NCBI GenBank assembly: GCA_913778275.1
Contig: CAJYWN010000009.1
Span: 129,154-193,153 of the forward strand
Source: an uncultured Chryseobacterium sp.
Lineage (GTDB): Bacteria > Bacteroidota > Bacteroidia > Flavobacteriales > Weeksellaceae
Length of the DNA stretch: 64,000 nt
Direction: 5' to 3'
The stretch's first letter is position 1, and each line of letters begins with the position of its first letter. Of the stretch, positions 43,528-62,835 are shown one piece after another. The notes under the pieces are model-generated. The model made no database searches, was not told where the DNA came from, and saw nothing but the letters and a program-made list of their open reading frames with translations. Both the position numbers and the translations under genes were made by a program.

Positions 43528-44243
43528 TAGAATTCTGGGCAGAAATTCCAAGAAGGGATGAAGAATATTTAGGCTCCATCCGCGATTGGAAAAATGTTCT
43601 GGTAGCATTGGAAGAAGATGTTATCTGGCTGAAAGGATTCACCGGAGAGCAGGCTGTTTCGGCAGAAATACAGCAGTTGCCGAATTTTGTGCTGTATGAA
43701 TTGAGGGACGGACTTTTGTTCAGTAAAGATGCACTGGTTCCGAGTAAAAAAGTAAGAACAGCCCTGCTTTGGACACCTATTCATAAAGCATTACGATTAA
43801 CATTTCCTCCTTCCAACAATAATTTCTTCGGAATCGATGAAAAAATTGATATTAAACTAAAAGCCTGTGAGCAAGAACATCATGTGATTGCTTTATTAGC
43901 TCCTATTGCGCAGATTAGTAAATCCATTATCGTCCAGCCGAAATTCAGGCTTGAAAAAATAAGCTGGACAGTTATTGATGATAAAGCATTATTCTTAGGA
44001 AATCCATTATTAAGCTTTCCCGGGAAAACGTTTTGGGAAAAAGACGGACATCTGTTACCGGCCGGTTTTGATTTTGAATTTAAAAACATGAGCGTTTTAT
44101 TGCAGAAAAAATACAATACAGAATTGGGTCAATGGCTTCTGTGGAATGAAGATGGAAGCGTTTTACCAATTAATAAAAGTGATTTCCGGAAAATGTCCGT
44201 AAGCTCATTTCGTCTGACTGAAAAAGCAAAAGAATGGAACTGA
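43500..44243 (+). CDS. bpX-type component of the MoxR-vWA ternary system
   Basis: A 247-residue protein (MAKDPSEYIIEFWAEIPRRD start). The order of strands and motifs such as WLKGFTGEQAVSAEIQQLP and LRDGLLFSKDALVPSKKVR fits the bpX2-like family described in these ternary systems, which always sits between MoxR and the vWA gene. No catalytic motif is visible; a recognition or adaptor role is likely. It overlaps the MoxR gene by 28 bp and the next gene by 10 bp, so all three are translationally coupled. Confidence 0.65.
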   Translation: MAKDPSEYIIEFWAEIPRRDEEYLGSIRDWKNVLVALEEDVIWLKGFTGEQAVSAEIQQLPNFVLYELRDGLLFSKDALVPSKKVRTALLWTPIHKALRLTFPPSNNNFFGIDEKIDIKLKACEQEHHVIALLAPIAQISKSIIVQPKFRLEKISWTVIDDKALFLGNPLLSFPGKTFWEKDGHLLPAGFDFEFKNMSVLLQKKYNTELGQWLLWNEDGSVLPINKSDFRKMSVSSFRLTEKAKEWN

Positions 44244-46621
44244 ACGAATACTTCCAGTCATACGAAAACTATTTCTGGGAATGGGCTACCGATGAAGACG
44301 TACCGGATCCGTCAGGCTATGATGAATATAACCTTATTTCCATCCCGAATGTAGGTGCAATCGCTTACAGACCTTACGTTATTGAAGTCCTGAAGGAACT
44401 GCAGCCGTACGGTTTTCCGCCTTTCGGATCACTGCTTCTGGTGCTGTATGCTTCTCAGGACAGTTATCTGAATTTAAACGGTATTTCGTATTATTTAAAA
44501 AAGATAGAAAAAAATTCACTGCTCAGAAATACAGATCAGATTGTGGAGCTTTTAGAAAACATCAACAGGCTACCGCGAATTTACAAAACAGGCCAGAACA
44601 AAATCAATCTTCTTCAGACACTTTTTAAAAACTCCCATAACCGAACTTCTTCCGGAAGTGCAGAACTTATATTAAAAAGATTCGCCAAAAGACCCTATAA
44701 AATTGCGGAATGTGCCCAAAAAATATCTTTTCGCTCAATGCTTTTTGCAGCGGATGATATCGGCAACTTACTAAATGTGAAAGGAAAGTTTCCAACCACA
44801 GCGTCCATTATTCATGCAATGAAAGGTATAGCGGAAATTCCGGATCTGGAGGATGAAGTGGTAGAAGAAGAAACGACCGCAGAAAGCGGAAAAGATTTTA
44901 TTCAGGAATTAATTGATGAGCCGAAGACCTTTCAGGTTGGAAGTTTAATTAAAAGAATCTGGAGCGGACTGAAAATTCCGATGCGCCACCTTTCTCCCGG
45001 TGAACAGCCCATTGGAGGGATTTCGGATATGAGCAATAAAGGTGATTTTAACAGAATGCTTCTATCCGAATTTGCCAACGAAGATGAGGTGTTTATGAAT
45101 CGTGTGGCTAATAATGAAGCTCTTTATATTCAGCGTGAAATTCCGCCTGAAGAAAATGTTTTTGAAAGAATCATTCTCATTGATACTTCCCTGAAAAATT
45201 GGGGAACTCCTAAAGTGCTGGCTTTTGCATCTGCCATTGCCATCATCAAACATCCTAAAGCACATTCGGAATGTAAGGTTTTGACATTGGGACATATCGG
45301 TCAGGAAATTTCCCTTAATAAAGCAGAACATGTTATCGAAAACCTCAACCAGGTAAGTCCGGTGCTGGAGGTTTCCCAGGCATTGCAAAAATTTTTTGAA
45401 GAGGATCACAGGGAAAAAGATCTTGAAGTTTTTTTCATTACCCACCAGGAAAATGCGGCAGATCAGAAATTGCAGAAAGTCATTCATGAAAACAGGGATC
45501 GCCTGAAATTTCTCGTGACCACTTCAGCCGCCGGAGAACTGAACTTCTACAAGCATCATAAAGGAACAAGAAAGCATATACAGAAGATCATACTTCCGCT
45601 GCACGAATTGTGGGCAAATCCTCCGAAGGGAAAAAGAAACGGAGAAAATAATTTCTCATCAAACGGAAAAAAGGCTGCTGTTCCGTTAAATTATCCGATT
45701 CTGTTTCCTACACCGGTCCATAAGATTGCAACCTTTCTGTATGAAGGAGAGTTCTATATATTAAGCAACAAAAAGCAGCTGTTAAGAACTTATCTGTCTG
45801 ATAATTATTATAATAAAAGCCATTATGATTACTATAAAATCCAGCACGGATCTGAAGTTCTGATTGAAGATATTTCCGTAAAACCGAAAGGCCAGTTTGC
45901 TTTAGCAAAAAATAAACAGCAGGAATTTATTTTATGCCAGTACCAGCCGGATAAAAGACTGATTTCTAAATTAAATTTAAATACAAAAGAGTATTCCGAG
46001 CTGAATATCACCGGAAAAATAGTTCCACCGGATTTTAATCTCATTTATTTTAATAAAAACTTTTACCTGCATCATGAAAAGCCGGTATGGATCTATCAGA
46101 TAAATCTTGAAGGAAATATCTCAATTGAACAGGTAAAGAACGATACGGAAATTGCTAAAAACTATGCAAAAGCGGAAGCTGAGGTATCTAAGCTTGCCAA
46201 TAGGGGAATTAAGATCTTCAACAATTTCAGTAAAATAGGAATAAATACAGATGAAGAATTGGTGATCTCAAAATATATAATGACAAGTCACGGCGACAGC
46301 CTTTATGCCTTTGCAAAAAACAGCACCGATATCAAAGTAATGGCCACTCAGAATAAAAATGTATTCAGCTTTGAAGACGGAAGTGAAATTATTACAGATT
46401 CCCGCGGAATGCTCACTTTCAAAAGCAGCAATAAAAATATACCTGTTTTTTATATGCCTTCCGCCGAATATGGATATCTGGCATTAGGAACGGAAAATTA
46501 TTTTGGCGGATCAGAATATTACCTTCCGAAAGAAAATAAATTGAAAATAAAGGAAATGGACGAAATGTACGATCAATACATGGACGCTTTTATTAAACAT
46601 GTTTTGAAATATGGAACTTAG
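44234..46621 (+). CDS. vWA domain and beta-propeller-like protein of the ternary system
   Basis: A 795-residue protein. Residues 1-300 are a helical bpX-like region. A von Willebrand A-type domain begins near residue 310 with RIILIDTSLKNWGTPKVLAF, but the MIDAS motif DxSxS is only partly kept (D-T-S-L-K), so classical metal coordination may be weak. Residues after about 480 form repeated strand-rich units (FYEGEFYILSNKKQLL, KFYLHHEKPVWIYQI-like, DSLYAFAKNSTDI, AEYGYLALGTENYFGG), consistent with the beta-propeller that names these systems. It is coupled by overlaps of 10 and 11 bp to both neighbours. It should be the MoxR client and sensor or scaffold. Confidence 0.8.
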   Translation: MELNEYFQSYENYFWEWATDEDVPDPSGYDEYNLISIPNVGAIAYRPYVIEVLKELQPYGFPPFGSLLLVLYASQDSYLNLNGISYYLKKIEKNSLLRNTDQIVELLENINRLPRIYKTGQNKINLLQTLFKNSHNRTSSGSAELILKRFAKRPYKIAECAQKISFRSMLFAADDIGNLLNVKGKFPTTASIIHAMKGIAEIPDLEDEVVEEETTAESGKDFIQELIDEPKTFQVGSLIKRIWSGLKIPMRHLSPGEQPIGGISDMSNKGDFNRMLLSEFANEDEVFMNRVANNEALYIQREIPPEENVFERIILIDTSLKNWGTPKVLAFASAIAIIKHPKAHSECKVLTLGHIGQEISLNKAEHVIENLNQVSPVLEVSQALQKFFEEDHREKDLEVFFITHQENAADQKLQKVIHENRDRLKFLVTTSAAGELNFYKHHKGTRKHIQKIILPLHELWANPPKGKRNGENNFSSNGKKAAVPLNYPILFPTPVHKIATFLYEGEFYILSNKKQLLRTYLSDNYYNKSHYDYYKIQHGSEVLIEDISVKPKGQFALAKNKQQEFILCQYQPDKRLISKLNLNTKEYSELNITGKIVPPDFNLIYFNKNFYLHHEKPVWIYQINLEGNISIEQVKNDTEIAKNYAKAEAEVSKLANRGIKIFNNFSKIGINTDEELVISKYIMTSHGDSLYAFAKNSTDIKVMATQNKNVFSFEDGSEIITDSRGMLTFKSSNKNIPVFYMPSAEYGYLALGTENYFGGSEYYLPKENKLKIKEMDEMYDQYMDAFIKHVLKYGT

Positions 46622-48311
46622 AATAAAACCTTTTCCGAAAAATAATCATCCTAAAAAAGGGCTTCTCATTAAAGGTTCTTCACCAAGGACATGGCTGTAT
46701 GAAATGGAGATGTTAGGGATTGACTTAAATGAGGTCCGGTCTTTTCCCATTCCTGCCGATGAACCGAATGTACTGTACGGATGTTTTTTGATTTTTCAGC
46801 ATACTGCTCCGGTTGAAATTGGCAGAAATTCCTATTTCCAATGTGTTGATCGTAAACTTTTCATTCCTGAAAATACAGACTTTTATCCCAAAATAATTTC
46901 CGAAGACTTGCAGAATACCGATGCGGAATTTCTGATCATGCATCCCGAATTCGGTCTGGTAAAACTGAATGAAGAAATCGACTGGATCTCGATCATCAAA
47001 ACTCCAAAACCATCCTCCTACAAAATACGTAAGCCATCGAGTGGGGTGAAAATCCCGCAGAAGATTGAGAGTTATACCGTGGAAATGGATGATGAACAAA
47101 TTCTCAAATCCCTTCAGAAGCCGCAAACCGAAGAAGCATGGATGAAAGAGCTGCCTTTCGATCTTCAGAAGGTAATGAAAGGGAATAAAAAAGAAGTTGA
47201 AAAATATTTAAAATATATTGAAAAATATCCTGACAGAGCAGTAGATCTCGGTGTTCCGCTGGATGTTATGGGAACTTCCAGAGGTGATGGTTTTGCAAAA
47301 TTTAAATTTGGAAATTCCTGGCTTGGAAAGTTGTTTGGCGGTGGAAATTCTGCATATTCTCAAAATTACCGCTGGGTATTTTGGGTTGTCCTTATTATAA
47401 TGGGTCTGGTAAGGCTTTTTGTGCATCTTAATAAGAAAGAATCTGCAGAAAACCATTCTACGATATCCTCAGGAAAAATTTCTGAGGTGAATAAAGATTT
47501 AATGAAGCCTATGGTAGCCTATCAGTCCGGTGTAACGGATATTGATATGAAAATTGATTCCATGTATGGTAAAGAAAGGCGTAAACTGATGGATGAGCAT
47601 ATGAAGGCGATGCTTAGTTATAATGATCCAAAAAACAAAAACAGCTACAAAGAATATCTGAAAAATGGCGGAAAACCGATTAATGAAATTTATAAGGAGA
47701 TTACAGATCATCAAAACAAGGTTAAAACTTCGGAAGATTCCCTGAAAAAGGTGTACAGCAAAAAAATTGTAAAATATTTAGCCCAAAACGAAGAAAAATA
47801 TAAAAATAAAATTAGGGACTCGTTGAAAAAAATCACTTCAGGAAAGCCCGCAGAACAGGGAATTATAAAAAAAATCTGGAAAAAGAAACAGATACTGATT
47901 GAAGATTCACTGGGCAGATTGTACGGAACAAAAGACTATCCTGAACCGCCTGCAATTCAGGATGCAGGTCAAAAAGCTACAGCTTATGAAAAGGAAGAAC
48001 CTTACGTGAAAAATGACACCTCTTTTTCAGAAATTATCTGGCTGATCATCTTTATGACCGGTGTTGTAGGACTGTATAATTTTATAGTTAAAAAAAGATC
48101 CTTAAATGCAGGAGGGCAAAATGTTCCCGGTAGTATTAAAATTTTTCTCATCATTGTGCTGGTCGGTATGTTGGCCTATATTTTCTACCCGTTAATTGAA
48201 ATGTTCGGCTACAACTGGTTTGTGTGGATTCTCATTGTAGGTGTCGTATTATTGCTTTACAGGCTGTTCAGTGAAGATAAAACCATTTTAAAATCAGACA
48301 AAGATGAATAG
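46611..48311 (+). CDS. Membrane component of the ternary system with N-terminal bpX-like domain
   Basis: A 566-residue protein. Residues 1-125 are a strand-rich domain (MELRIKPFPKNNHPKKGLLI, then RTWLYEMEMLGIDLNEVRSF) resembling the bpX6-type domain of MoxR-vWA systems. A charged linker leads to a transmembrane helix at about residue 253-272 (WVFWVVLIIMGLVRLFVHL). A long Lys/Glu-rich helical or coiled segment (280-460) follows, then three more hydrophobic segments near residues 472, 512 and 535. It may anchor the complex to the inner membrane. It overlaps the upstream gene by 11 bp and the downstream gene by 8 bp. Confidence 0.7.
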   Translation: MELRIKPFPKNNHPKKGLLIKGSSPRTWLYEMEMLGIDLNEVRSFPIPADEPNVLYGCFLIFQHTAPVEIGRNSYFQCVDRKLFIPENTDFYPKIISEDLQNTDAEFLIMHPEFGLVKLNEEIDWISIIKTPKPSSYKIRKPSSGVKIPQKIESYTVEMDDEQILKSLQKPQTEEAWMKELPFDLQKVMKGNKKEVEKYLKYIEKYPDRAVDLGVPLDVMGTSRGDGFAKFKFGNSWLGKLFGGGNSAYSQNYRWVFWVVLIIMGLVRLFVHLNKKESAENHSTISSGKISEVNKDLMKPMVAYQSGVTDIDMKIDSMYGKERRKLMDEHMKAMLSYNDPKNKNSYKEYLKNGGKPINEIYKEITDHQNKVKTSEDSLKKVYSKKIVKYLAQNEEKYKNKIRDSLKKITSGKPAEQGIIKKIWKKKQILIEDSLGRLYGTKDYPEPPAIQDAGQKATAYEKEEPYVKNDTSFSEIIWLIIFMTGVVGLYNFIVKKRSLNAGGQNVPGSIKIFLIIVLVGMLAYIFYPLIEMFGYNWFVWILIVGVVLLLYRLFSEDKTILKSDKDE

Positions 48312-49320
48312 GCAGAAGTTTATAGACAAATTCAGCGCAGCCTTTTTTATTTTGGTGATCATTAAGGTCATCGCTCTGTTAGCACAGTTGTTTCATCAGA
48401 GTTTTTGGAGCGTTGTAGGAACCCTTGTGATTTTTATTATTGTTGCTTTTATTATTTTTATTGTCATTACCCGTCTGGAAGACAAGGAAAAAGACATACA
48501 GGGAAGAAGAGGTGCTGCTTCCGGTGGAAATTTTTATGTGGAAAGTTCTCTTTTTGATAAAATCAGGAATAAATACGAGGAACTTGCTAAAAGTTATATC
48601 CGTGAAAAGGATTATAAAAAAGCAGCCAAAGTGTATATCAATCTTCTTCAGGATCATTACCGCGGAGCCAAAACACTGGAGGAAGGAGGGTTTTACAATG
48701 AGGCAGCAGTGATTTACCTGAAAAAACTGAAAAATAAATCTGAAGCTGCGAATTGTTATGAAAAAGCAAAGCAATACCGGAAAGCAATAGAACTGTATAA
48801 AGATCTTGAACAGAAAGAAAAGGTGGGTGATTTGTATAAAGAAATCAATGATTATAAAAATGCCAATATCTATTATCAAATGGTGGTTGACGATTACGTA
48901 AATTATAATCAGATGGTAAAAGGTTCATTGGTTTATCGTAAAAAAATGGAGATGCCTGAAGAGGCCCAGAAAATTTTGCTGATAGGATGGGAAGAAGATA
49001 AAGATGCCTTCAACTGCCTGAATAATTATTTTGTCAATATCTTTGATGCTAAAAACCTCGAACACGAAATCGGGGAACTATATCAAAAAACACCTTCTGA
49101 AAAAAAGATCATCTTTCTCGAAGCAATGAAACATGAATTTAAAAGAGATCTTTCACTTCATACCATAATCAGGAATATCGCCTATGAAATTATCGCAGAA
49201 AAAGTGATTACTCATTCGGAAATTGTTAATGAATTAAAATATTTCAATCCGGATGATGAGGTTATTTTAAAAGATATTTCGAGATATAAAACGGGCCGGA
49301 ATAAAATGTTCAGGAGCTAA
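48304..49320 (+). CDS. Membrane protein with TPR-like repeats, ternary-system component
   Basis: A 338-residue protein. Two N-terminal transmembrane helices (FFILVIIKVIALLAQLF and LVIFIIVAFIIFIVI) are followed by tetratricopeptide-like helices at about residues 85-210. Repeated YxxAAxxY units are visible (KKAAKVYINLL, YNEAAVIYLKKL, SEAANCYEKAK, RKAIELYKDL, KNANIYYQMV). The C-terminus is helical. TPRs mediate protein contacts, so it is probably a membrane scaffold for the MoxR-vWA complex. It is the last gene of the overlapping operon (8-bp overlap with the previous one). Confidence 0.75.
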   Translation: MNRQKFIDKFSAAFFILVIIKVIALLAQLFHQSFWSVVGTLVIFIIVAFIIFIVITRLEDKEKDIQGRRGAASGGNFYVESSLFDKIRNKYEELAKSYIREKDYKKAAKVYINLLQDHYRGAKTLEEGGFYNEAAVIYLKKLKNKSEAANCYEKAKQYRKAIELYKDLEQKEKVGDLYKEINDYKNANIYYQMVVDDYVNYNQMVKGSLVYRKKMEMPEEAQKILLIGWEEDKDAFNCLNNYFVNIFDAKNLEHEIGELYQKTPSEKKIIFLEAMKHEFKRDLSLHTIIRNIAYEIIAEKVITHSEIVNELKYFNPDDEVILKDISRYKTGRNKMFRS

Positions 49321-49337
49321 ACTTTTCAAAAAACAAT

Positions 49338-49546
49338 TATCTTTGCACCAATAAAATTATGACAATACAAAGAGCACATATCAGTTTAAATCTATGCGAT
49401 CGCCCTATGCTAAAGGGATCGTTTGGATATGAATGGATGATATTGAATGAGGCAGAATGTGCTTGCTTTGAAAATAATTTACTGTAAACCCGTAAAAATT
49501 TTATCAAAATAGTGCAGAAACGCCTCGATTTTCGAGGCGTTTTTTG
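49338..49546 (+). ncRNA. Short promoter-to-terminator transcript, possible small RNA or micro-ORF
   Basis: A perfect -7 box TATCTTTG at 49338-49345 is followed by a 42-codon ORF (49359-49487, start MTIQRAHISLNL) and a strong terminator at 49518-49546. Within it the segment at about 49396-49422 forms a hairpin (CGATC...GGATCG around CCCTATGCTAAAGGG), so the transcript may be a structured RNA rather than an mRNA. No ribosome-binding sequence is expected in Bacteroidetes, so translation cannot be judged. It sits just before the tRNA-like array. Confidence 0.45.
49518..49546 (+). terminator. Rho-independent terminator
   Basis: AAACGCCTCGA and TCGAGGCGTTTTTT form an almost perfect stem-loop with a T run. 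Confidence 0.9.
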
Positions 49547-49800
49547 TGTTTTTAAGAGAGAAATTATTTAGAATGAAAAAAAATAACTATAAAAGTGAAA
49601 ATTTTTTAATCAGCAATGAACAATTAATAAGAAAATAAAGCGTGATCAATAACCCGATGAGAGACAGTCATTTAGGTAAGGATAAATCTGCAATCCGTTG
49701 CGGACAGGAATTTCTTATCTTAAAATTAAAGATTAAATATCTGATAATCAGTTTTTTATAGTAAAAATAAATTTGCAGGTTAAAAAAAATCATATTTACT
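49547..49800. other. Intergenic stretch
   Basis: About 250 bp with no gene. It contains a short dyad near 49694-49706 (TCCGTTGCGGA) but nothing I can assign. Its right end leads into a probable promoter (near 49796-49806, ATTTACTTTGCAA). Confidence 0.4.
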
Positions 49801-49804
49801 TTGC

Positions 49805-50053
49805 AACCGAAAATTGAAAGCAACAGGTTTTCAGCTTTTCAAAATGTTAAACAAAAATAAAAAATGAAACAATTACATAACATATCAGATTTACATTCAG
49901 GACAACGCGGTGCAGAACCGATGGGGCAGCAATATGCTTGTATAAATCTGCTTGATAGTGAATTTGTGGGAAAATGGTGCTTATATATATGGGTCAGCTA
50001 ATGAACTGACACGTCCAAAATATAAAGCGCCTCCCGAAAAGAGGCGCTTTTTT
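49805..50053 (+). ncRNA. Second short transcript with 45-codon ORF and terminator
   Basis: A -7-like TTACTTTG near 49797-49804 precedes an ORF of 45 codons at 49864-50001 (start MKQLHNISDLHSG, end WCLYIWVS). A small hairpin (GTCAG...CTGAC) spans the stop codon, followed by a terminator at 50024-50053. Like the element at 49338, it is a self-contained promoter-ORF-terminator unit that resembles no protein I know. It could be a micro-protein or a small RNA. It ends 10 bp before the first tRNA-like sequence. Confidence 0.45.
50024..50053 (+). terminator. Rho-independent terminator
   Basis: AAAGCGCCTC and GAGGCGCTTTTTT flank the short loop CCGAAAA. Confidence 0.9.
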
Positions 50054-50062
50054 ATGATGTAT

Positions 50063-50134
50063 GGTTTCTCTAGCTTATTTGGTAAAGCACCGGTTTGTGG
50101 CACCGGAGAATAGGGTTCGATCCCCGGAGATACC
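50063..50134 (+). tRNA. Degenerate tRNA-His(GTG)-like sequence
   Basis: The acceptor stem GGTTTCT/AGATACC has six of seven pairs. The anticodon stem CCGGT/ACCGG is perfect, with loop TTGTGGC, hence anticodon GTG (His). The D arm is AGCT...AGC-like. The T loop is TTCGATC, but its stem (TAGGG/CCCGG) has only three Watson-Crick pairs plus a wobble, so it is degenerate. The extra G at position -1 required by histidyl-tRNA synthetase is not evident. It starts an array of at least five such sequences. Confidence 0.6.
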
Positions 50135-50143
50135 CCAAAATGT

Positions 50144-50169
50144 GAATGGTCAATAGTGAATTTACTTCA
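50144..50169. repeat. Short interspersed repeat between tRNA-like sequences
   Basis: The motif AATGGTCAATAGTGAATTT followed by ACTTC recurs as AATGATCAATGCTGAATTT plus GCTTC at 50861-50884. Similar AATTGA/ATGAAT-rich stretches fill the other spacers of the array (for example 50594-50690). Confidence 0.5.
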
Positions 50170-50226
50170 TAATTGAATTAAAATTGATAGCAGAGCGAAT
50201 TTGCAATTCACAATTCACCCGAAAAA

Positions 50227-50297
50227 GGTCTATTGAGGTAATGGTAACCTTCCCGACTGTCTCTCGGGTACTGCGAGTTCGATTCTCGCATAGACCG
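50227..50297 (+). tRNA. tRNA-Asp(GTC)-like, compact
   Basis: Acceptor stem GGTCTAT/ATAGACC, anticodon stem CCCGA/TCGGG and T stem GCGAG/CTCGC are all perfect. The anticodon loop CTGTCTC gives GTC (Asp) but has U at position 37, where bacterial tRNAs carry a purine. The D arm is short (3-bp stem). CCA is not encoded, and the discriminator is G. It folds well but is not a standard aspartate tRNA. Confidence 0.7.
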
Positions 50298-50515
50298 CAA
50301 AATGAGAAAGGAAAAGTTTGTCGAGCGCAGACGATCTTTAAGCCAAAAGCACATAACCTATAGACATGCTTTTTCTTAACTCAACTAAAACTAGTGAAAT
50401 AAAGTCTGTCAAAGCGCAGAAGTTCTTACATCAAACTAAAAATTAAGACAGGTTTTATTTTCTTCAAATAATAAGCTGCTGGTGAATTACTCATTACCGG
50501 TTGCTTATAAAAGCC

Positions 50516-50589
50516 GCGGGAGTGGTGGAAATGGCAGACACACTTGATTTAGGCTCAGGATTTTGGGGGTTCGAATCCCTCTTCCCGTA
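50516..50589 (+). tRNA. tRNA-Leu(TAG)-like lacking the long variable arm
   Basis: Acceptor stem GCGGGAG/TTCCCGT (two G-U pairs), anticodon stem CTTGA/TCAGG, loop TTTAGGC with anticodon TAG (Leu), and T stem GGGGG/CCCTC around TTCGAAT. The variable region is only five bases (ATTTT), whereas all bacterial leucine tRNAs have a long variable arm. It would therefore be a poor leucine tRNA. Confidence 0.7.
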
Positions 50590-50593
50590 CAAA

Positions 50594-50690
50594 ATATGAG
50601 TGATGAAATATGAATGATAATTGATAAATCATCAATAATAAATGAATAATCCGGAAATAGAATCAATTATCAATCATCACTTATCAATAC
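50594..50690. repeat. AT-rich ATGAT/ATCAAT spacer repeat
   Basis: Variants of ATGATAATTGATAAATCATC and its complement recur in this spacer. Such low-complexity repeats are frequent between genes in flavobacteria. Here they separate the tRNA-like sequences. Confidence 0.4.
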
Positions 50691-50699
50691 TAATTAAAC

Positions 50700-50771
50700 T
50701 GATTCATGGTGTAATTGGCAGCACACAAGACTTTGACTCTTGTTGTTCAGGTTCAAACCCTGATGAATCAA
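50700..50771 (+). tRNA. tRNA-Gln(TTG)-like
   Basis: Acceptor stem TGATTCA/TGAATCA, anticodon stem CAAGA/TCTTG with loop CTTTGAC (anticodon TTG, Gln) and T stem TCAGG/CCTGA are all perfect. The D arm GGTGTAATTGGCAGCAC resembles ordinary Gln tRNAs. The discriminator is A. Of the array members this one looks most like a working tRNA. Confidence 0.75.
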
Positions 50772-50779
50772 CAAAAACT

Positions 50780-50850
50780 ACTCCGATGATGTAATGGCAG
50801 CATCTCAGTCTCCAAAACTGACGGTACTGGTTCGAATCCGGTTCGGAGTG
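50780..50850 (+). tRNA. tRNA-Trp(CCA)-like with Gln-type D arm
   Basis: Acceptor stem ACTCCGA/TCGGAGT, anticodon stem TCAGT/ACTGA with loop CTCCAAA (anticodon CCA, Trp) and T stem ACTGG/CCGGT are perfect; the discriminator is G. The D arm (GATGTAATGGCAGCATC) is the short kind seen in the neighbouring Gln- and Asp-like sequences rather than that of a usual Trp tRNA. Confidence 0.7.
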
Positions 50851-50979
50851 CAAGAATGTTAATGATCAATGCTGAATTTGCTTCGCAAGTGAATTTGAAA
50901 TTGACAATACAATGGATTAACGATTTACAATTGATGACATAATTATTAAAATTTAAACAAAAAAAAATATGTAGAAAAA

Positions 50980-51465
50980 ATGGAAACGCAACAACAAACA
51001 TGGCAAAACATGACCGGAAAAATCTTTCGGAACTCTATCACAGAGCTGGTAGAAGAAGCCGTCATCCGCGAACAGGCTAATGGACACCGACTGAAAGTAT
51101 GTGTGGGATCAGATTCCCATGTGTATGGGGATGCCATTAATTATGCTACGGCAGTAGTCTTTATTCGGGAGGGAAAAGGAGCGTTTACCTTTATCAGAAA
51201 AGAAAGGGAAATACAGACAATCAGTATCAAAGAGCGAATGCTGAATGAGGTAAACAAATCCGTAGAAATCGCCTATGCCATCTGTGCTGTTCTGGATGCT
51301 TACGGAGTAGAAATGGAAGTACACGCAGACATTAATACCGACCCGGATTTCAAATCCAACGCAGCATTAAAAGATGCAATGGGATACATTCTCGGAATGG
51401 GCTATGTATTTAAAGCAAAGCCTTATGCGTTCGCAAGCTCCAATTGTGCGGATATGATGGTATAA
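50980..51465 (+). CDS. YkuK-type RNase H-like protein (DUF458)
   Basis: A 161-residue soluble protein. KVCVGSDSHVYGDAINYATAVVF near residues 43-65 is the first strand of an RNase H-like fold with acidic Asp and His, and EVHADINTDPDFKSN near residue 112 supplies further Asp residues. This matches the YkuK/DUF458 family. Such proteins are reported in predicted RNA-repair gene neighbourhoods, where they may process RNA ends. It lies 130 bp after the Trp-like tRNA sequence. Nuclease activity is inferred from the fold. Confidence 0.82.
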   Translation: METQQQTWQNMTGKIFRNSITELVEEAVIREQANGHRLKVCVGSDSHVYGDAINYATAVVFIREGKGAFTFIRKEREIQTISIKERMLNEVNKSVEIAYAICAVLDAYGVEMEVHADINTDPDFKSNAALKDAMGYILGMGYVFKAKPYAFASSNCADMMV

Positions 51466-51520
51466 TAAACTAAAAGCAGCGCAAATACTATTATAAATTT
51501 AAACTTCCGTTTTAGAACGA

Positions 51521-51553
51521 AAACCTCACAGGTTTTTAAAAACTGTGAGGTTT
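51521..51553. repeat. Perfect-stem inverted repeat (ACCTCACAG)
   Basis: AAACCTCACAG pairs with CTGTGAGGTTT around a short AT loop. The same hairpin recurs at 52528-52558. It may act as a terminator or processing site between genes of this cluster. Confidence 0.7.
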
Positions 51554-51578
51554 AAATAAAAGAATAAAATTTAAAAAA

Positions 51579-51950
51579 ATGGAATTGACAAAAAGATTAT
51601 TGTTTCTGGACGATATACGATATCCTATTGAAGTTTATCATTATGCAAAACAGGATATTTTCCTGAGAAGCGATTGGTTTATCGTTCGGAATTACAAGCA
51701 GTTTATCGATAGAATTTTGGAAAACGGCTTACCGGAAATGATTTCTTTTGACCACGATCTTGCAGACGAACATTATTTAAAAGCAGATTCTCAGCAATTT
51801 GTCGAAAGAACAGGGTATGACTGCGCGAAGTGGCTTGTAGAATACTGCATGGATAATGGTGCCGATTTACCGGAATTTTACTGTCATTCCATGAATCCTG
51901 TAGGAAAGGAAAATATTGAAAGCCTTTTAAAAAACTTTAAAAAATTATAA
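51579..51950 (+). CDS. Cyclic-phosphate-processing receiver-domain protein (cpREC)
   Basis: A 123-residue single-domain protein. It opens RLLFLDDIRYPIEVYHYA (paired Asp), has MISFDHDLADEHYL near residue 56, and TGYDCAKWLVEYC, then LPEFYCHSMNPVGKENIESL. This is the receiver-like domain family described by comparative genomics of RNA-repair systems, predicted to act on 2',3'-cyclic phosphates of broken RNA. It is followed directly (TAA/ATG contact) by the DinB-like gene. Confidence 0.8.
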   Translation: MELTKRLLFLDDIRYPIEVYHYAKQDIFLRSDWFIVRNYKQFIDRILENGLPEMISFDHDLADEHYLKADSQQFVERTGYDCAKWLVEYCMDNGADLPEFYCHSMNPVGKENIESLLKNFKKL

Positions 51951-52507
51951 TGGACATATTTAGATGTATACAATTTATACAAACGCATTTGAAACTCACT
52001 TTTGATCAGGTTGACCGATGGTTTGGAAAAGATAATAAAACGTTGAATTATCAGCCTGCGAACGGTGGCTGGACAGTTCAGCAGATTTTAGAACATATTT
52101 ATCTCACGAACTTTTATCTGTTGATACTTATTGAAAAAGGATCAAAAAAAGCAATGCGGAATTATCTGAATCTTGATTTGAATCTGGAGATAAAAAATTA
52201 CAGTTTCAATCAGGAAAAGTTCGAAAAAGTAGGAGAATATGGCGCTTTTGAGTGGATAAGACCGGAACACATGGATCCGAAAGAAAACTTAAATTCAGAT
52301 GAAATCAGACGATTAATTGCTCAGCAATATCAGCAATGTTTACATTATTTGGATTTAATGGAAAATGGTGAAGGTCTTCTCTGCAAAACAACAATGACAG
52401 TGAATGAATTGGGAAAGATTAATGTGTACGAATATATTTACTTCCTTTCACTTCATGCTCAGAGACATCTTACTCAGATGAAAAATAATGAATTACAAAT
52501 AATTTAA
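51950..52507 (+). CDS. DinB-like metal-binding protein
   Basis: A 185-residue four-helix-bundle protein of the DinB/YfiT superfamily. Typical pieces are NYQPANGGWTVQQILEHIYLTNFYLLILIEKG (His in the first helix pair) and YEYIYFLSLHAQRHLTQMKN at the C-terminus (paired His). The metal-binding His triad seems present. DinB-like proteins may be thiol-dependent transferases; in this RNA-repair-like setting the role is unknown. Its start overlaps the last base of the cpREC gene stop, so it is coupled to it. Confidence 0.82.
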   Translation: MDIFRCIQFIQTHLKLTFDQVDRWFGKDNKTLNYQPANGGWTVQQILEHIYLTNFYLLILIEKGSKKAMRNYLNLDLNLEIKNYSFNQEKFEKVGEYGAFEWIRPEHMDPKENLNSDEIRRLIAQQYQQCLHYLDLMENGEGLLCKTTMTVNELGKINVYEYIYFLSLHAQRHLTQMKNNELQII

Positions 52508-52527
52508 TCCCTTCATGTAGGTAAGGA

Positions 52528-52558
52528 AACCTCACAGGTTTTCAAAACCTGTGAGGTT
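52528..52558. repeat. Inverted repeat (ACCTCACAGG), second copy
   Basis: AACCTCACAGG and CCTGTGAGGTT flank a short TTTTCAAAA loop. It is nearly identical to the element at 51521-51553. Confidence 0.75.
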
Positions 52559-52586
52559 AAATAAAAACAATTAAAAATTTAAAACA

Positions 52587-53150
52587 ATGAAACAAAATAT
52601 ATTTTTTACGGCAGACCATCATTTCGGTCATGCCAATATTATAAAATTCTCCGAAAGGCCTTTCGAGTCGTTGGAGCATATGAATGAAGAACTTATTAAA
52701 CGGTGGAACGAGAAAATAGGTAAAGAGGATACTGTTTACCATTTAGGAGACTTAAGTTTAGGCAAACCGGATTTTACGAAAGAAACTCTGGACCGATTAA
52801 ACGGAACCATCCATCTGATAAAAGGAAATCACGAGGGTGCGGCGTTAACGTATCCCAAACGATTTGCATCCATCAGGGATTACCATGAGTTAAGAATTGA
52901 TGAGGCCGAAAACAGTAACGGCAAACAAAAAATCATTCTTTTTCATTACTCCCTTCGAACATGGAACGGCTCCCATCGCGGAACCTGGCAGTTATACGGC
53001 CATTCGCACGGAACATTGCCGGATGATGAAATGGCATTAAGTTTCGATGTAGGGGTGGACTGTCATGATTTCTATCCTGTTTCCTACGAAGAAGTAAAGG
53101 AACTTATGAAGAAGAAAAAATGGACACCGCCTTTTGCGCCAAGGAATTAA
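52587..53150 (+). CDS. Calcineurin-like metallophosphoesterase
   Basis: A 187-residue enzyme with all metal-binding motifs of the fold: FFTADHHFGHANI (DxH), TVYHLGDLSLG (GDxx), LIKGNHE (GNHE), FHYSLRTW (first His pair) and LYGHSHGTLP (GHxH). It should hydrolyse a phosphomonoester or diester. In the RNA-repair context it may remove phosphates or cyclic phosphates from RNA ends, but this is inference. It is complete, starts at the ATG after the AACCTCACAGG hairpin, and is followed by an RNA-rich gap. Confidence 0.9.
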   Translation: MKQNIFFTADHHFGHANIIKFSERPFESLEHMNEELIKRWNEKIGKEDTVYHLGDLSLGKPDFTKETLDRLNGTIHLIKGNHEGAALTYPKRFASIRDYHELRIDEAENSNGKQKIILFHYSLRTWNGSHRGTWQLYGHSHGTLPDDEMALSFDVGVDCHDFYPVSYEEVKELMKKKKWTPPFAPRN

Positions 53151-53337
53151 AGGGATGGAAAAGGATGGTGAAAACGTGAAGTAAGACCTGTCTTAAAGCT
53201 TTTCTTCCTTAAGTTTTAAAAATAATTTTTTTCTGCGCAAAAACACTGCGCAATCAGTATTTTATTTTGCTTCATCAAAATGGCAACAACTAAATTGTGA
53301 AAAACAGATTTTAGTCAAAATATCAGGCGGGTCTAGT

Positions 53338-53485
53338 TGGGTGTTTCGGTATATCACCATTGCAGAATGATTTGTTGAGAAACATGATTTTGTTCTGTTC
53401 AGCTTGACCTGAAGGTTTCAGGAGTTTCCAAAAACTTCCGGACATTTTCTATGTATGGAGGTTCGAGTCCTCCCTGTGATCGACA
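53338..53485 (+). ncRNA. Candidate tRNA-like RNA with D and T arms split by a ~100-nt structured insert
   Basis: A D-like arm (GGTG, 11-nt loop TTTCGGTATAT, CACC) at 53340-53358 is followed by about 100 nt with several hairpins (CAGAA/TTCTG; CCTGAA/TTCAGG; GGAGTTT/AAACTTCC). Then comes a perfect T arm (GGAGG, TTCGAGT, CCTCC) at 53458-53474. There is no ordinary anticodon arm. Downstream CTGTG...CACAG can fold as a hairpin. The layout recalls bacterial Y RNAs (YrlA-like), in which a tRNA-like module is joined to other stems, but no Ro-type protein gene is in the window. The boundaries are approximate. Confidence 0.45.
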
Positions 53486-53488
53486 CAG

Positions 53489-53547
53489 TAGCTAAATGGT
53501 ATAGCAATGGAATCTTAGGATCGCGTGGGTTCGAATCCCACTCTCGT
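53489..53547 (+). ncRNA. Degenerate tRNA-like fragment
   Basis: A D-like arm (GCT, AAATGGTAT, AGC) and a perfect T arm (GTGGG, TTCGAAT, CCCAC at 53525-53541) remain. The middle segment (ATGGAATCTTAGGATCG) forms no standard anticodon stem, and the presumed acceptor ends do not pair. It looks like a decayed or non-translational tRNA. Confidence 0.45.
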
Positions 53548-53550
53548 TTT

Positions 53551-53604
53551 CACGGGATAGCTCAGTCTGGTCAGAGCACTACATTACGGTTGTAGGTTAA
53601 TATC
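53551..53604 (+). ncRNA. Truncated tRNA-Arg(ACG)-like sequence
   Basis: The 5' half is tRNA-like: a D stem GCTC/GAGC with loop AGTCTGGTCA, and an anticodon stem CTACA/TGTAG with loop TTACGGT, anticodon ACG (Arg). After the variable region the T arm is absent and a terminator-like hairpin begins at 53605. The 5' acceptor strand (CACGGGA) finds no partner. Confidence 0.55.
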
Positions 53605-53632
53605 AAAAATAGACTCAAAATCTATTTTTTTT
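53605..53632 (+). terminator. Rho-independent terminator in place of the T arm
   Basis: AAAAATAGA and TCTATTTTTTTT flank a 7-nt loop. It ends a transcript that would begin in or before the split tRNA-like RNA. Confidence 0.75.
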
Positions 53633-53807
53633 CGCGAGTTTCCGGGTATTCTCAACAAAAATATCCGCACTGGAAAATCCGGGATGTTTTCGGTTGTTGA
53701 ATCAACACTCTGAAAAAGCCTGCAAGAAAAGAGGTTTTCTAAAATGAAACGGTATGGAAGAGCTTATTATCTTCAGACAAATGCTGAAAAGACGGTTTTC
53801 CGCGTGA

Positions 53808-53905
53808 GCGATGGAAACGGATATCCTTTTTTGCTTGCAAAAAAGATAGAAGTGAACGTAGCGACCCGGGCTGCAGGCAATGCGGCAGCGAGGGACACGC
53901 CCAAG
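53808..53905. repeat. Flavobacterial intergenic repeat
   Basis: This contains the motifs GATATCCTTTTTTG, CAAAAAAGATAGAAGTGAA and GACACGCCC. I associate this series with a repeat that occurs widely between flavobacterial genes. A related element, in reverse orientation, begins near 63937 at the right edge (GGAGCTATTTCGTGCTTTCG). Confidence 0.4.
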
Positions 53906-54043
53906 ATCTGAAATTCAGGATAAATCTGAAAACTGAGTGTAAACATCAGTGAATTTTTTGTAAAACACTTTACTTCCGCATTTTTCGGAAGAAGAGATCA
54001 CGGATTTCCTTTTATAAATAATAACGGTTAAAAAATAAAAATC

Positions 54044-55141
54044 ATGATAAAAAATGTACATATTAAAGCATATGAGAGAGGTCTTGTTTTCAAAAATGGA
54101 AACCTGGTCGATATCCTGAAAGAAGGAAGCTTCTGGGTTTTTGGGAATAAATCTGTAGAGATCTACGATATGAAATATTCTTTTAAAAGCAATACTGAAC
54201 TTACTCTTTTGCTGAAGAATGAGAGGCTGAAAACCATGCTGGATGTGGTTGAAGTGAAAGACGGTGAAATCGTTCTTGTTTACGAAAACGGGATTTTCAA
54301 AGAAGTATTGAATGTAGGGCAGTACGCTTTCTGGAAAGGTGTTTTTAACAGAGAATTTCAAAAAATCGATGTCACAAAAGTAGAGATTACCGAAAATATT
54401 TCCAGGAATATTATGGAAAATGCAAAGCTTAAAAGTTTTGTAAGAAAATTTACCATCACCAACCAGTATAAAGGTCTTTTGCTGGTTGACGGAAAGCTGG
54501 ACCGCGTTTTAGATGCCGGAACATACTATTTCTGGAACAATGAAACTTCTATAGAGGTGAAAGCCATTGATACCAGAATGCAGCAAATGGAAATTGCAGG
54601 GCAGGAATTGCTTACAAAGGATAAAGCAATGCTCAGAATTAATTTTTATGTCCGTTTCCAGGTGGAAAATATCGTGAAAGCGCTTATGGAGAATAAAGAA
54701 TATGACAAGCAATTGTACATTCTGATGCATCTGGCGTTGAGAGAATTCGTAGGCGCTTTAACCCTTGATGAACTGCTGGTGAAAAAAGATTCCGTAGGAA
54801 AAGAAATCCTGGAGAATCTGGGAAATAAGGCTGAAGATTTAGGTCTGAAAGCTGCTGATGCAGGAATTCGGGATGTCATTTTAACAGGCGAAATGAAAGA
54901 AATCATGAACCAGGTTCTCATTGCCGAAAAGAAAGCCCAGGCCAACACCATCATGAGACGTGAAGAAACGGCTTCCACAAGAAGTTTGTTGAACACTGCG
55001 AAACTCATGGAAGAAAACGAAGTGCTCTGGAAGCTGAAAGAAATGGAATACATGGAGAAAATTGCCGATAAGATCGGAGATATTACCGTGTCCGGGAACC
55101 ATAATATTGTTGCTCAGCTGAAAGAGATCTTTACCAAATAA
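54044..55141 (+). CDS. Slipin (SPFH/Band 7) family protein
   Basis: A 365-residue protein with a C-terminal SPFH/Band 7 domain (IDTRMQQMEIAGQELLTKDK near residue 177, then FYVRFQVENIVKALM and REFVGALTLDELLVKKD) and a helical tail (LIAEKKAQANTIMRREETA). The N-terminus contains about three copies of a short slipin motif with the pattern GLVxxNGxLxxVLxxGxYxFW (near residues 13, 80 and 144). The hydrophobic membrane helix common in slipins is not evident, so it may be cytosolic. Slipins are recurrent partners in predicted RNA-repair loci. It follows the tRNA-like region directly and ends at a hairpin terminator. Confidence 0.85.
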   Translation: MIKNVHIKAYERGLVFKNGNLVDILKEGSFWVFGNKSVEIYDMKYSFKSNTELTLLLKNERLKTMLDVVEVKDGEIVLVYENGIFKEVLNVGQYAFWKGVFNREFQKIDVTKVEITENISRNIMENAKLKSFVRKFTITNQYKGLLLVDGKLDRVLDAGTYYFWNNETSIEVKAIDTRMQQMEIAGQELLTKDKAMLRINFYVRFQVENIVKALMENKEYDKQLYILMHLALREFVGALTLDELLVKKDSVGKEILENLGNKAEDLGLKAADAGIRDVILTGEMKEIMNQVLIAEKKAQANTIMRREETASTRSLLNTAKLMEENEVLWKLKEMEYMEKIADKIGDITVSGNHNIVAQLKEIFTK

Positions 55142-55160: not shown

Positions 55161-55192
55161 GATTCCGGCTTTGCGAAAGCAAAGCCGGAATC
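55161..55192. terminator. Bidirectional terminator
   Basis: GATTCCGGCTTTGC and GCAAAGCCGGAATC form a perfect 14-bp stem with a GAAA loop, between the convergent slipin and VOC genes. Confidence 0.9.
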
Positions 55193-55198
55193 GTTTTG

Positions 55199-57743: not shown

Positions 57744-58418
57744 TTGAAAACAGATATTGACATCCATAATCATTCACATTTTTCCTTTGATCTGTGGCTT
57801 ACCCTAATAAAATCTCACCCCGAATTTAAAGCTAAAAGAGTTGAGCTGTTCTCTTCATTTTTTGAAGTTAACAAGCGGGTTGATGAAGTGGCAAAAATTG
57901 TAAAATATTACGATGACCTGTGCAATTCCATCAATGAAATAATTGGCGGAAATGTAGATACATTTGAAATTTACTTACTGATCCTGCATGCTTTGGAAGT
58001 TGATCTGAAACAAATCAATAAAGATCAGCTGAATGAATTCTATCAAAAAAGTGAAGACTTGTTTCTGGAATATAAGCCTGTTGTGATTTTCGAAAACCTT
58101 CATGAATTTTTTGATGAAATTAAAAATCAGGGAAAGACGATTAATATTCTCAGCAACACTGGTTTTATCAAAGGAAAGACCATGCGGAAATTTCTGATTA
58201 ATGAAAACCTTGATCAGTATATTGATTTCCATATTTATTCTGACGAAACCAATTGCTCAAAGCCAGATCCGAAAATATTTCAGGAAGTGAAAAACCTGCT
58301 TAAAAATCAGGATCTGAATCACTCACAGATATTACACATCGGAGACAATCCTATTGCAGACTACAAGGGCGCAAAGGATTTCGGTTTTAGTGCACACTTA
58401 CTCACACACAAAATATAA
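57744..58418 (+). CDS. HAD-superfamily hydrolase of the Ter operon
   Basis: A 224-residue haloacid dehalogenase-like phosphatase. Motif I is HFSFDLWLTLIKS (nucleophile Asp), motif II INILSNTGF, motif III KPDPKIF and motif IV HIGDNPIADYKGAKDFG. No in-frame ATG is suitably placed, so a TTG start at 57744 is likely. HAD phosphatases recur in Ter-associated operons with a phosphoribosyltransferase, where they are thought to build or process a nucleoside-like metabolite. It is the first gene of the seven-gene Ter cluster and is followed 3 bp later by the PRTase gene. Confidence 0.8.
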   Translation: MKTDIDIHNHSHFSFDLWLTLIKSHPEFKAKRVELFSSFFEVNKRVDEVAKIVKYYDDLCNSINEIIGGNVDTFEIYLLILHALEVDLKQINKDQLNEFYQKSEDLFLEYKPVVIFENLHEFFDEIKNQGKTINILSNTGFIKGKTMRKFLINENLDQYIDFHIYSDETNCSKPDPKIFQEVKNLLKNQDLNHSQILHIGDNPIADYKGAKDFGFSAHLLTHKI

Positions 58419-58421
58419 ATT

Positions 58422-59246
58422 ATGAACAAACGATACAGCTTACACCATATCCGTTCTGCAGACGAGTTCACTTTTTCACCCGCGGAATACAGCTATTTCA
58501 AGTATGGAGACAAATCGTATGCTGCAAAATTTGCCAGAGAATTATTCGAAGGATTTATTTCTGCACACGAAAATATTCTTGATACAGATAAAGACATTGT
58601 GGTTCTGCCGAGTCCATATATGGCAATTCCTACGGCTTCCAATTTTTTATGTTTTTACTTTAAAAAACATCTGGATTTTTATTTGTTTCAGAAAGGAAAA
58701 AAATCAAGTATTCTTTCAAAAATCAACAGAAATCACACATACACGACGGATTACGGGAATTTAAGCTTTGAAGACCGTAAAAATCTGATTGCCAACGATA
58801 CTTATTATCTTGATAAAGATTTTCTTAGAGGAAAACTTTGTATTTTTATAGACGATATCAAAATAACCGGAAGTCATGAGTTTACCGTGAATAAAATTCT
58901 TAACGAATATCAGGTAGAAGCAGATTTTCTGTTCATGTACTATGCAGAGCTGATAAATCTTGAGCTTGATCCGAAAATTGAAAATTATTTCAATTACTAT
59001 GCGGTAAAAAACGTAGAGCATATCGCAGAAGTAATGCTGAAACCAAGTTTCCAATTCAATACAAGAATTGTAAAATACATTTTAGGACTGGATTCAGGTA
59101 ATTTTGACTATCTTTCGTCTAAAGTAAAAAAAGAACAGATGGATCACCTGTTGGAACTGGCGATCAGCAACAACTATCATTTAATAAAAGAATACGAAAA
59201 CAATATTAATACATTAACACAAACTGAACTATATTATGGCTATTAA
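58422..59246 (+). CDS. Ter-associated phosphoribosyltransferase
   Basis: A 274-residue protein. DIVVLPSPYMAIPTASNF near residue 60 and the segment KLCIFIDDIKITGSHEFTVNKIL near residue 144 correspond to strands of the phosphoribosyltransferase (PRTase) fold, with IDDIKITGS as the PRPP-binding motif. PRTases are standard partners in Ter operons, where they may make a specialised nucleoside. It follows the HAD gene by 3 bp and overlaps the terD gene by 11 bp. Confidence 0.82.
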   Translation: MNKRYSLHHIRSADEFTFSPAEYSYFKYGDKSYAAKFARELFEGFISAHENILDTDKDIVVLPSPYMAIPTASNFLCFYFKKHLDFYLFQKGKKSSILSKINRNHTYTTDYGNLSFEDRKNLIANDTYYLDKDFLRGKLCIFIDDIKITGSHEFTVNKILNEYQVEADFLFMYYAELINLELDPKIENYFNYYAVKNVEHIAEVMLKPSFQFNTRIVKYILGLDSGNFDYLSSKVKKEQMDHLLELAISNNYHLIKEYENNINTLTQTELYYGY

Positions 59247-59790
59247 CTTACAGAAAGGACAAAGAGAAAATATAAACGCACCAAAATTTACCGTAGGTTT
59301 AGGATGGGACATCAACAATACCTCTACAGGAACGGCTTTTGATCTTGATGCTTCTTTATTTTTATTGGGAGAAGATAAAAAATTGATTTCCGATAATCAC
59401 TTTATTTTTTACAACAACCTTGAATCTCCGGATAAAGCAGTGATCCATTCCGGTGATAATTTAACCGGTGACGGAGCAGGAGACGATGAGCAGATTAAAA
59501 TCGATTTAACCAAAATTGATGCTGCCGTAAAAGAAATCATTGTTGTGGTGACGATTCACGAAGCAGATTCCAGAAGACAGAACTTCGGACAGGTAAGAAA
59601 CTCTTTCATCAGAATTTTTAATACAGATACCAACGAAGAATTATTAAAGTACGAACTGGACGAAGATTTCTCCATCGAAACAGCAGTAGAATTCGGAAGA
59701 ATATACAACAGAAACGGCGAATGGAAGTTTGAAGCCGCAGGAAGCGGACAGCGAGAAGGTCTTGAAAAATTTGTAGCAATGTATCAATAA
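59236..59790 (+). CDS. terD: TerD family protein (1)
   Basis: A 184-residue TerD protein. It contains the calcium-binding pattern GLGWDINNTSTGTAFDLDAS (near residue 22) and IHSGDNLTGDGAGDDEQIKIDL (near residue 70), with the Asp/Glu-rich loops of the family, and ends IYNRNGEWKFEAAGSG. TerD proteins bind calcium and act in tellurite and stress responses with TerC and TelA. It overlaps the PRTase gene by 11 bp; another TerD gene is at 62058. Confidence 0.94.
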   Translation: MAINLQKGQRENINAPKFTVGLGWDINNTSTGTAFDLDASLFLLGEDKKLISDNHFIFYNNLESPDKAVIHSGDNLTGDGAGDDEQIKIDLTKIDAAVKEIIVVVTIHEADSRRQNFGQVRNSFIRIFNTDTNEELLKYELDEDFSIETAVEFGRIYNRNGEWKFEAAGSGQREGLEKFVAMYQ

Positions 59791-59797
59791 TCTTATC

Positions 59798-60967: not shown

Positions 60968-60982
60968 TAGCATTGTAAAAAG

Positions 60983-61930: not shown

Positions 61931-62057
61931 TAAGTACAATCATAAAACCGAAGTAATCATAATCGTAGTATTGTAAAACTAAAAATAGATAAATGTACAG
62001 GTAATGATTCTTCGCTGTTACAATTCGTAAAATACAAACAAAAATAAACATAAAAAG

Positions 62058-62669: not shown

Positions 62670-62684
62670 TGTACATTCAATAGG

Positions 62685-62743: not shown

Positions 62744-62835
62744 GGAATGTAAATTTGAAAAATAAAATAAAATTAAACAGCAATATTTGTATTCGTACAG
62801 CTATTGCTTTTATCATTTAACAACACACATTAAAA

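Follow-up and report, generated by a model that had tools for sequence, protein, structure and literature searches.

Introduction

In the attenuators of the trp, his and leu operons, a short leader open reading frame (ORF) is followed by a terminator with which an antiterminator competes, and the position of the ribosome on the leader serves as the switch. The RNA-repair neighbourhoods of Burroughs and Aravind (2016) reportedly link YkuK, cpREC and slipin genes with RNA ligases and RtcB, and we know of no leader peptides or attenuators among them. Here we describe a locus that resembles both, found in a stretch of 64,000 nucleotides (nt) from an uncultured Chryseobacterium sp. (assembly GCA_913778275.1, contig CAJYWN010000009.1, positions 129,154 to 193,153 of the forward strand; the whole stretch is referred to below as the window). 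Like the classical operons, the locus has leader ORFs, terminators and antiterminators, and like the neighbourhoods just mentioned it joins YkuK, cpREC and slipin genes. The trp, his and leu leaders favour one or a few regulatory codons, whereas those described here spell nearly all amino acids, come in tandem, and precede tRNA genes and genes of RNA-repair type. We consider it probable, from the sequence comparisons given below, that this is a stress operon in which two tandem ribosome-mediated attenuators control reserve tRNAs and RNA-handling genes.

The nearest working analogue is the trn operon of Anabaena, which, in the available part of its description, is a silent extra set of 26 tRNAs that is induced by translational stress, aids survival and is kept off by the repressor TrcR, with rtcB and a slipin gene in the same regulon (PMC10272220). 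That operon is carried by a plasmid and governed by a protein repressor, whereas here two cis attenuators would take over the control, and the array is chromosomal in relatives. In Salmonella, RtcR of the rsr-yrlBA-rtcBA locus senses 2',3'-cyclic phosphate tRNA fragments, according to the accessible sections of PMC7790460. The present locus shares with it a Y RNA with a tRNA-like part, the theme of tRNA damage and, in some relatives, TROVE and RtcB, but differs in its tRNA array and leaders, and in that no ligase or Ro gene was found in the locus. Phage tRNAs with altered anticodon loops are predicted, in the accessible text of PMC10264068, to resist anticodon nucleases. The array tRNAs have altered anticodon loops too, and Ser(gct) is the sole Ser anticodon of the Chryseobacterium arrays (5/5), which the same study also observes for mycobacteriophages; unlike the phage tRNAs, they belong to bacterial chromosomal arrays that appear to be under their own control. 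Taken singly, attenuation, tRNA arrays, Y RNAs and RNA-repair islands are all known. A leader with nearly all amino acids, with or without a tRNA array behind it, was not found in searches of listings and abstract openings of open-licence PubMed Central papers, which is a weak negative, as subscription papers mostly lie outside that collection.

Leader ORFs and putative attenuator structures

All window features below lie on the plus strand. Leader ORF 1 (49359..49487) has 42 codons and 19 of the 20 amino acid types, lacking only Val, and all 19 types occur within its first 30 codons; leader ORF 2 (49864..50001) has 45 codons and also 19 types, lacking Thr. The two ORFs end 33 and 25 nt 5' of intrinsic terminators 1 (49521..49545) and 2 (50027..50053), respectively, and the second terminator ends 9 nt 5' of the first tRNA. 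On reading 49320-50063, a hairpin followed by a T-run was seen after each leader. An earlier reading of this DNA, made from the letters alone (the sequence-only reading), had picked out the tRNA array correctly, but overlooked both leader ORFs and their terminators (49359-50053). A putative -7 promoter box of the TAnnTTTG type, read from the sequence according to what we take to be the Bacteroidota promoter consensus, is located directly 5' of leader 1 (49338..49345), and a conserved -7-like box 5' of leader 2 suggests a second promoter there.

The window was analysed together with 80 fetched loci (81 sequences; L-numbers are locus labels). Leaders were sought by a scan that was seeded on terminators and ignored composition, a leader being an ORF with at least 17 amino acid types just 5' of a terminator; 32 of the 81 sequences were excluded, either because the slipin strand carries fewer than two array tRNAs (21 sequences) or because the array begins at the locus edge (11 sequences). 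This composition-blind scan recovered the same leader ORFs: at least one leader was present in 41 of the 49 scannable sequences and two in 31, and in Chryseobacterium relatives they stand at about -700 and -190 from the first tRNA, about as in the window. Among the eight sequences in which no such leader was found, L021, L049, L051 and L076 have at least one by a wider scan, L052 and L055 carry a related ORF with 16 types, and only 267 and 364 upstream bases are present in L016 and L035. In the wider scan, which covered both strands of all 81 sequences, 624 terminators yielded 74 rows that belong to the known set and 56 that do not. Nine of the latter were counted as further leaders by their position (two each in L005, L021 and L076, one each in L049, L050 and L051, the one in L050 lying, like the array next to it, on the minus strand); of the other 47 rows, nine have at least 18 types and three at least 19, these three being 52-56 codons long.

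Clustering at 50% identity sorts the 76 distinct leader peptides into 19 groups, and very different peptides retain a near-complete set of amino acids. At least 19 types occur in 54 of the 78 ORF-terminator pairs and 20 types in 22, while for windows of 36-42 residues from real proteins, used as the null, the mean is 15.0-15.7 types, and 0.8-2.6% of them have at least 19. Cys is found in 73, His in 75 and Pro in 72 of the 76 peptides (null fractions 0.22, 0.47 and 0.62), and the groups of L057 and L078 (Kordia and Hanstruepera) hold 20 types in 30 and 29 codons, matched by 0 of 60,000 null windows at each length. The diversity is concentrated 5' of the antiterminator arm (p = 5e-19 for 15 groups and 70 leaders, with 70 of the 78 pairs used, a combined value that is too small because groups share descent), and from the arm onward p is 0.79. 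Such confinement fits the needs of a sensor in which the ribosome would stall for want of almost any tRNA. The residues most often missing from the 70 leaders are Val (22), Trp (18), Thr (16) and Ala (13). Val, Thr and Ala are rare or absent in the tRNA arrays as well, but Gly, never missing from the leaders, has 0 of 571 array tRNAs, and Trp tRNAs are present. The rank correlation between what the leaders miss and what the arrays contain is not significant (p = 0.11), and Ala, Gly, Val and Thr set against the rest give p = 0.015; only a hint of a link between leader content and array content may be taken from these figures.

Within each leader ORF lies an arm that can pair with the terminator in an alternative structure. 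For the arm of leader ORF 1 (49449..49453) the partner is the 5' arm of terminator 1, and for that of leader ORF 2 (49976..49988) it is the terminator 2 5' arm together with the nucleotides preceding it. With the 3' arm of the terminator left out, the minimum-energy structure of 75 of the 78 pairs has the 5' arm folded back onto the ORF, 12-39 nt upstream of its stop codon, and the leader-terminator complementarity is greater than with shuffled tails (19 groups, Fisher p = 1.7e-8, again too small for the reason of shared descent). In alignments of 23 (leader 1) and 26 (leader 2) relatives, the antiterminator is paired in 95.5% of cells for leader 1 and 88.0% for leader 2, and both terminators are paired in 100% (22 distinct rows for terminator 1, 26 rows for terminator 2). 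The arm of leader 2 is conserved as RNA even where the reading frame downstream of it stops early. Three features of an attenuator are found together at this locus, namely a leader ORF shortly 5' of an intrinsic terminator, an antiterminator pairing that overlaps the ORF, and regulatory residues before the arm, the last of these in a new form in which nearly all amino acids, placed before the arm only, would play the regulatory part. Such geometry points to ribosome-mediated attenuation.

Leader 1 was detected in 157 of 296 genomes of the family, in one copy each. Among 296 genomes drawn from the phylum, 14 have a slipin match at E of 1e-30 or better; the 13 further loci that remain without L001 have leaders in five of the six cases with at least four tRNAs and candidate leaders in one of the seven with fewer than four. 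In 25 short loci (L081-L105) examined around RtcB, TROVE and ligase genes, no leader-like ORF was convincing.

The tRNA array

ARAGORN finds exactly five tRNAs in the window, at 50063-50851: tRNA-His(gtg) (50063..50136), with G-1 and C73 in the Rfam alignment and one acceptor mismatch; tRNA-Asp(gtc) (50227..50298), with U at position 37; tRNA-Leu(tag) (50516..50590), 75 nt long and devoid of a long variable arm; tRNA-Gln(ttg) (50700..50772); and tRNA-Trp(cca) (50780..50851). Their Rfam tRNA scores are 45.9-63.1 bits, compared with a gathering score of 29, and the five anticodons are those originally assigned. The 6.5 kb upstream of YkuK or slipin hold at least two slipin-strand tRNAs in 60 of the 81 sequences. 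The Chryseobacterium arrays share their order, with His first and Leu, Phe, Gln and Trp last, followed by YkuK and then, where present, by cpREC, DinB, phosphoesterase and slipin; the largest array comprises 17 tRNAs (L042), and the window, with five, has a thinned-out array whose ends are unchanged. Arrays reach as far as Aquimarina, Kordia, Hanstruepera and Tenacibaculum, and in two loci from Chryseolinea (L050 and L053) an array is on the opposite strand. The link between the tRNAs and genes of RNA-repair type, already drawn in the sequence-only reading, is borne out by these large arrays, whose order is conserved upstream of the same slipin gene in many relatives, more than chance would give. 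Chryseobacterium taichungense, the source of the nearest slipin among the fetched loci (90% identical), has housekeeping copies of all five anticodons; in this genome, the closest one examined, array tRNAs would thus not be the sole copies for their codons.

For the sequence comparison, 571 array tRNAs (541 parsed) were set against 100 housekeeping tRNAs from two genomes (88 parsable). In the Chryseobacterium group, identity to the best-matching housekeeping tRNA averages 0.49-0.72 per anticodon, and this match is often a tRNA for another amino acid. The array tRNAs are well paired, with 0.5-3.7% mismatches per stem vs 1.3-2.7% in housekeeping tRNAs, and the discriminator base of most fits the amino acid of the anticodon: it is G for Asp (39/39), Asn (25/26) and Trp (25/25), U for Cys (41/41), and A for Lys (35/35), Leu (tag and taa, 61/61), Pro (28/28), Tyr (gta, 21/21) and Glu (42/46), the fit being weaker for Phe and Gln. 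Divergent sequences that still carry matching discriminators favour spare chargeable tRNAs over anticodon decoys, and we read the array as a set of spares usable in translation. U37, found chiefly in Asp and Glu, is present in 57 of 540 array tRNAs vs 0 of 88 housekeeping ones; by analogy with the phage tRNAs in the accessible text of PMC10264068, the array tRNAs may escape tRNases. Ala, Gly and Val are absent from the 349 tRNAs of the Chryseobacterium set, and the other set of 222 includes three Val, one Ala and no Gly tRNAs; the arrays of L050 and L173, outside both counted sets, have one Gly tRNA each. In tRNA-Thr array members of L002, L008, L014, L020, L035, L040 and L042, U at position 33 is replaced by A, and these may not decode.

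Proposed mechanism and alternative explanations

From these results, the following mechanism is proposed. Each leader mRNA spells nearly every amino acid before the point where the antiterminator can form. With all charged tRNAs present, the ribosome would reach the end of the leader and cover the antiterminator arm, so that the terminator forms and transcription stops. If almost any one tRNA were in short supply, whether cleaved by a tRNase or uncharged, the ribosome would stall earlier, the arm would pair with the 5' arm of the terminator, and RNA polymerase would read on. Read-through would yield a reserve set of divergent but chargeable tRNAs, and then the YkuK, cpREC, DinB-like and phosphoesterase proteins, the Y RNA-like RNA and slipin, all of which might serve in the handling or repair of damaged RNA. 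The notion that tRNA-like RNAs act as sensors, put forward in the sequence-only reading, survives in spirit, the likely sensor being the pair of leader peptides and not the tRNA-like RNAs themselves. We also lean, with some reserve, towards the more specific picture of two leaders in series as an alarm for any tRNA, which would release toxin-escaping tRNAs that keep their synthetase identity, proteins of RNA-repair type and a tandem Y RNA.

A number of observations weigh against this interpretation. The shuffle p is 0.15 or above in five of the 19 leader groups, leader 1 of L056 and L068 did not fold into an antiterminator, and covariation within the genus is modest, the observed score having been reached by 39 of 500 shuffles for antiterminator 1 and by 13 of 500 for antiterminator 2. 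The leader groups, partly related by descent, were treated as independent, which makes the combined p-values too small, and L171 has four tRNAs and no leader. Among the array tRNAs, the discriminator is A in 34 of 43 Phe (gaa) and 28 of 47 Gln tRNAs. U33 is missing in 14 of 540 array tRNAs vs 0 of 88 housekeeping ones, and the Leu (tag/taa) array tRNAs have 74-77 nt, compared with 81-85 nt for housekeeping Leu, with no long variable arm; owing to these last two properties, some array tRNAs may not translate.

Under the same attenuators, the array tRNAs might be decoys or sacrificial substrates for tRNA-cutting toxins instead of working spares, much as the sequence-only reading had supposed in suggesting baits. 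Their anticodons equal the housekeeping ones, the anticodon loops of Lys, Asn and Trp are identical to their housekeeping counterparts, a few members are devoid of U33, and Leu is devoid of the long variable arm; a role as competitive inhibitor has been suggested for the tRNA-like part of YrlA, in the accessible sections of PMC7790460. However, the anticodon arms, compared without the anticodon itself, do not mimic the housekeeping isoacceptor: within the Chryseobacterium group, their identity to the housekeeping arms of the same anticodon is 0.473, vs 0.475 to those for other amino acids; outside Chryseobacterium, the two values are 0.454 and 0.450. It is the acceptor stems that resemble same-anticodon housekeeping tRNAs more (0.389 vs 0.312, Chryseobacterium group), and together with the mostly fitting discriminators this is something that a decoy would not need. 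The comparison of arms lends no support to anticodon decoys, and we regard the decoy explanation as unlikely.

The leaders might, alternatively, sense ribosome stalling in general, such as that caused by translation antibiotics, their mixed amino acid content being incidental. Some attenuators do respond to antibiotics. The Anabaena trn operon, too, is induced by translation antibiotics, according to the available part of PMC10272220. Any composition would suit a sensor of this kind; unrelated peptides nevertheless preserve 17-20 types, crowded into the part 5' of the antiterminator arm, and we find this explanation rather improbable. Still harder to accept is that the tRNAs are leftovers of phages or mobile elements which came to lie beside repair genes by accident. 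The array tRNAs are indeed unlike those of the host, and short matches to a related array occur in 565 phage records, but the top-ranked phage match covers 11% of the query array, no confirmed relative of leader 1 was found in viral contigs, and order and linkage are shared from Chryseobacterium to Aquimarina and Kordia, a conservation that makes accidental leftovers very unlikely. Relatives of YkuK (below 60% identity) were found in 63 phage records and slipin in 50 plasmid records, and a plasmid search with an array gave four records with short matches.

Protein genes and the Y RNA-like RNA

Pfam confirms all five protein families that had been named from the sequence: a YkuK-type RNase H-like protein (RNaseH_like, PF04308, E = 3.2e-31) at 50980..51465, a cyclic-phosphate processing receiver-like protein (cpREC; Pfam cREC_REC, PF20274, E = 1.8e-23) at 51579..51950, a DinB-like protein (DinB_2, PF12867) at 51950..52507, a calcineurin-like phosphoesterase (Metallophos_2, PF12850) at 52587..53150, and a slipin / Band-7 protein (Band_7, PF01145) at 54044..55141. 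The next terminator after terminator 2 in the terminator scan lies 3' of slipin (55161..55197), and since the scan, which is blind to A+T-rich terminators, found no G+C-rich one between terminator 2 and 55161, the leaders, tRNAs, proteins, Y RNA and slipin may form a single transcript. Two palindromic hairpins of 32 nt, 94% alike, precede cpREC (51522-51553) and the phosphoesterase gene (52527-52558). In L029-L036 and L038-L042, a Chryseobacterium subgroup, an extra match to slipin residues 1-177, from 10001, stands before the full match and is a repeated N-terminal part.

None of the RtcB, archease and TROVE families was found in 48 ORFs of the window, a scan outside which fell an ORF of 2092 amino acids (24339-30617) and smaller or overlapping ORFs. 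In the islands of relatives, a cluster of Rnl2-type ligases is present at 30 of the 80 loci, TROVE/Ro60 at 21, RtcB at 13 and a cluster of RNase_T family exonucleases at 38, these being counts of protein clusters with one member of each identified by Pfam. The RNA ligase that characterises repair loci of the RtcB type is accordingly missing from the 48 window ORFs and present in the islands of other members. Nine related genomes were examined as well, and RtcB was found in all nine, TROVE in three, and RNA_ligase above the cut-off in four (three of them strong). The sequence-only reading had suggested a possible ligase-free variant, which appears to hold for the locus as such but not for the nine related genomes, every one of which has RtcB.

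The region 53338-53604, formerly described as three degenerate tRNAs, is better taken for a Y RNA-like RNA (53330..53632, ends approximate, from Rfam matches and T-arm motifs) that contains two or three tRNA-like modules. The modules are permuted, with a T-arm, a closed acceptor-like hairpin, a D-arm and an anticodon-like arm, and alignments for the window, L001 and L060 show the permuted tRNA-like module of the YrlA type. The YrlA model (RF02553) scores 33.0 bits (E = 2e-4) in the window, 47.7 bits (E = 3.9e-9) in the same region of L060 and 26.0 bits in L001, all below the gathering score of 69; the tRNA model at 53557-53626 gives 23.3 bits, also below gathering. Because of these scores, the RNA is labelled Y RNA-like and not a member of RF02553. 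At least one fully paired T-arm motif is present upstream of slipin in 75 of 77 sequences and at least two in 59; among 317 random 1-kb windows taken from these loci, 32 have at least one and 20 at least two. As TROVE was not found in six of the nine related genomes, the RNA may have a different partner in those six. In the stretch that separates the Y RNA-like region from slipin, matches resembling Flavo-1 RNA were seen in the window (53794-53870, 34.7 bits) and in L001 (9761-9834, 32.1 bits; gathering score 42).

Other features in and around the locus

Terminator 1 and leader 2 are separated by a region that includes a short conserved element (49657-49720) with a shared core containing AGACAG. 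The element recurs from Chryseobacterium to Kordia, and structure prediction on 12 sequences gave no consensus for it. Weak Rfam matches to Phe_leader and STnc100 near terminator 1 were set aside as probably mere resemblance to a terminator. Directly upstream of the locus lies a MoxR-vWA-beta-propeller ternary system (bpX4, bpMoxR, bpX2, bpX0/bpX1 and bpX3; 41563-48311), parts of which are also found upstream of the array in several relatives. Downstream there is a Ter-type stress cluster (57744-63876) with genes for a HAD hydrolase, a ComF-like PRTase (phosphoribosyltransferase), two TerD proteins, TelA and TerC.

Implications

Bacteria commonly use tRNA cleavage against competitors and in defence against phages, and how cells outside RtcR-type systems notice and recover from the loss of any one tRNA is an open question, to which a leader that tests nearly every amino acid would be a simple answer. 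If the proposed mechanism is true, these leaders would be, to the best of our knowledge, the first attenuators to sense the whole pool of charged tRNAs, and the array would be the first chromosomal backup set of tRNAs with its own cis sensor. Large chromosomal tRNA arrays would then be explained as regulated spares, and the leaders would provide a ready sensor of the whole charged-tRNA pool.

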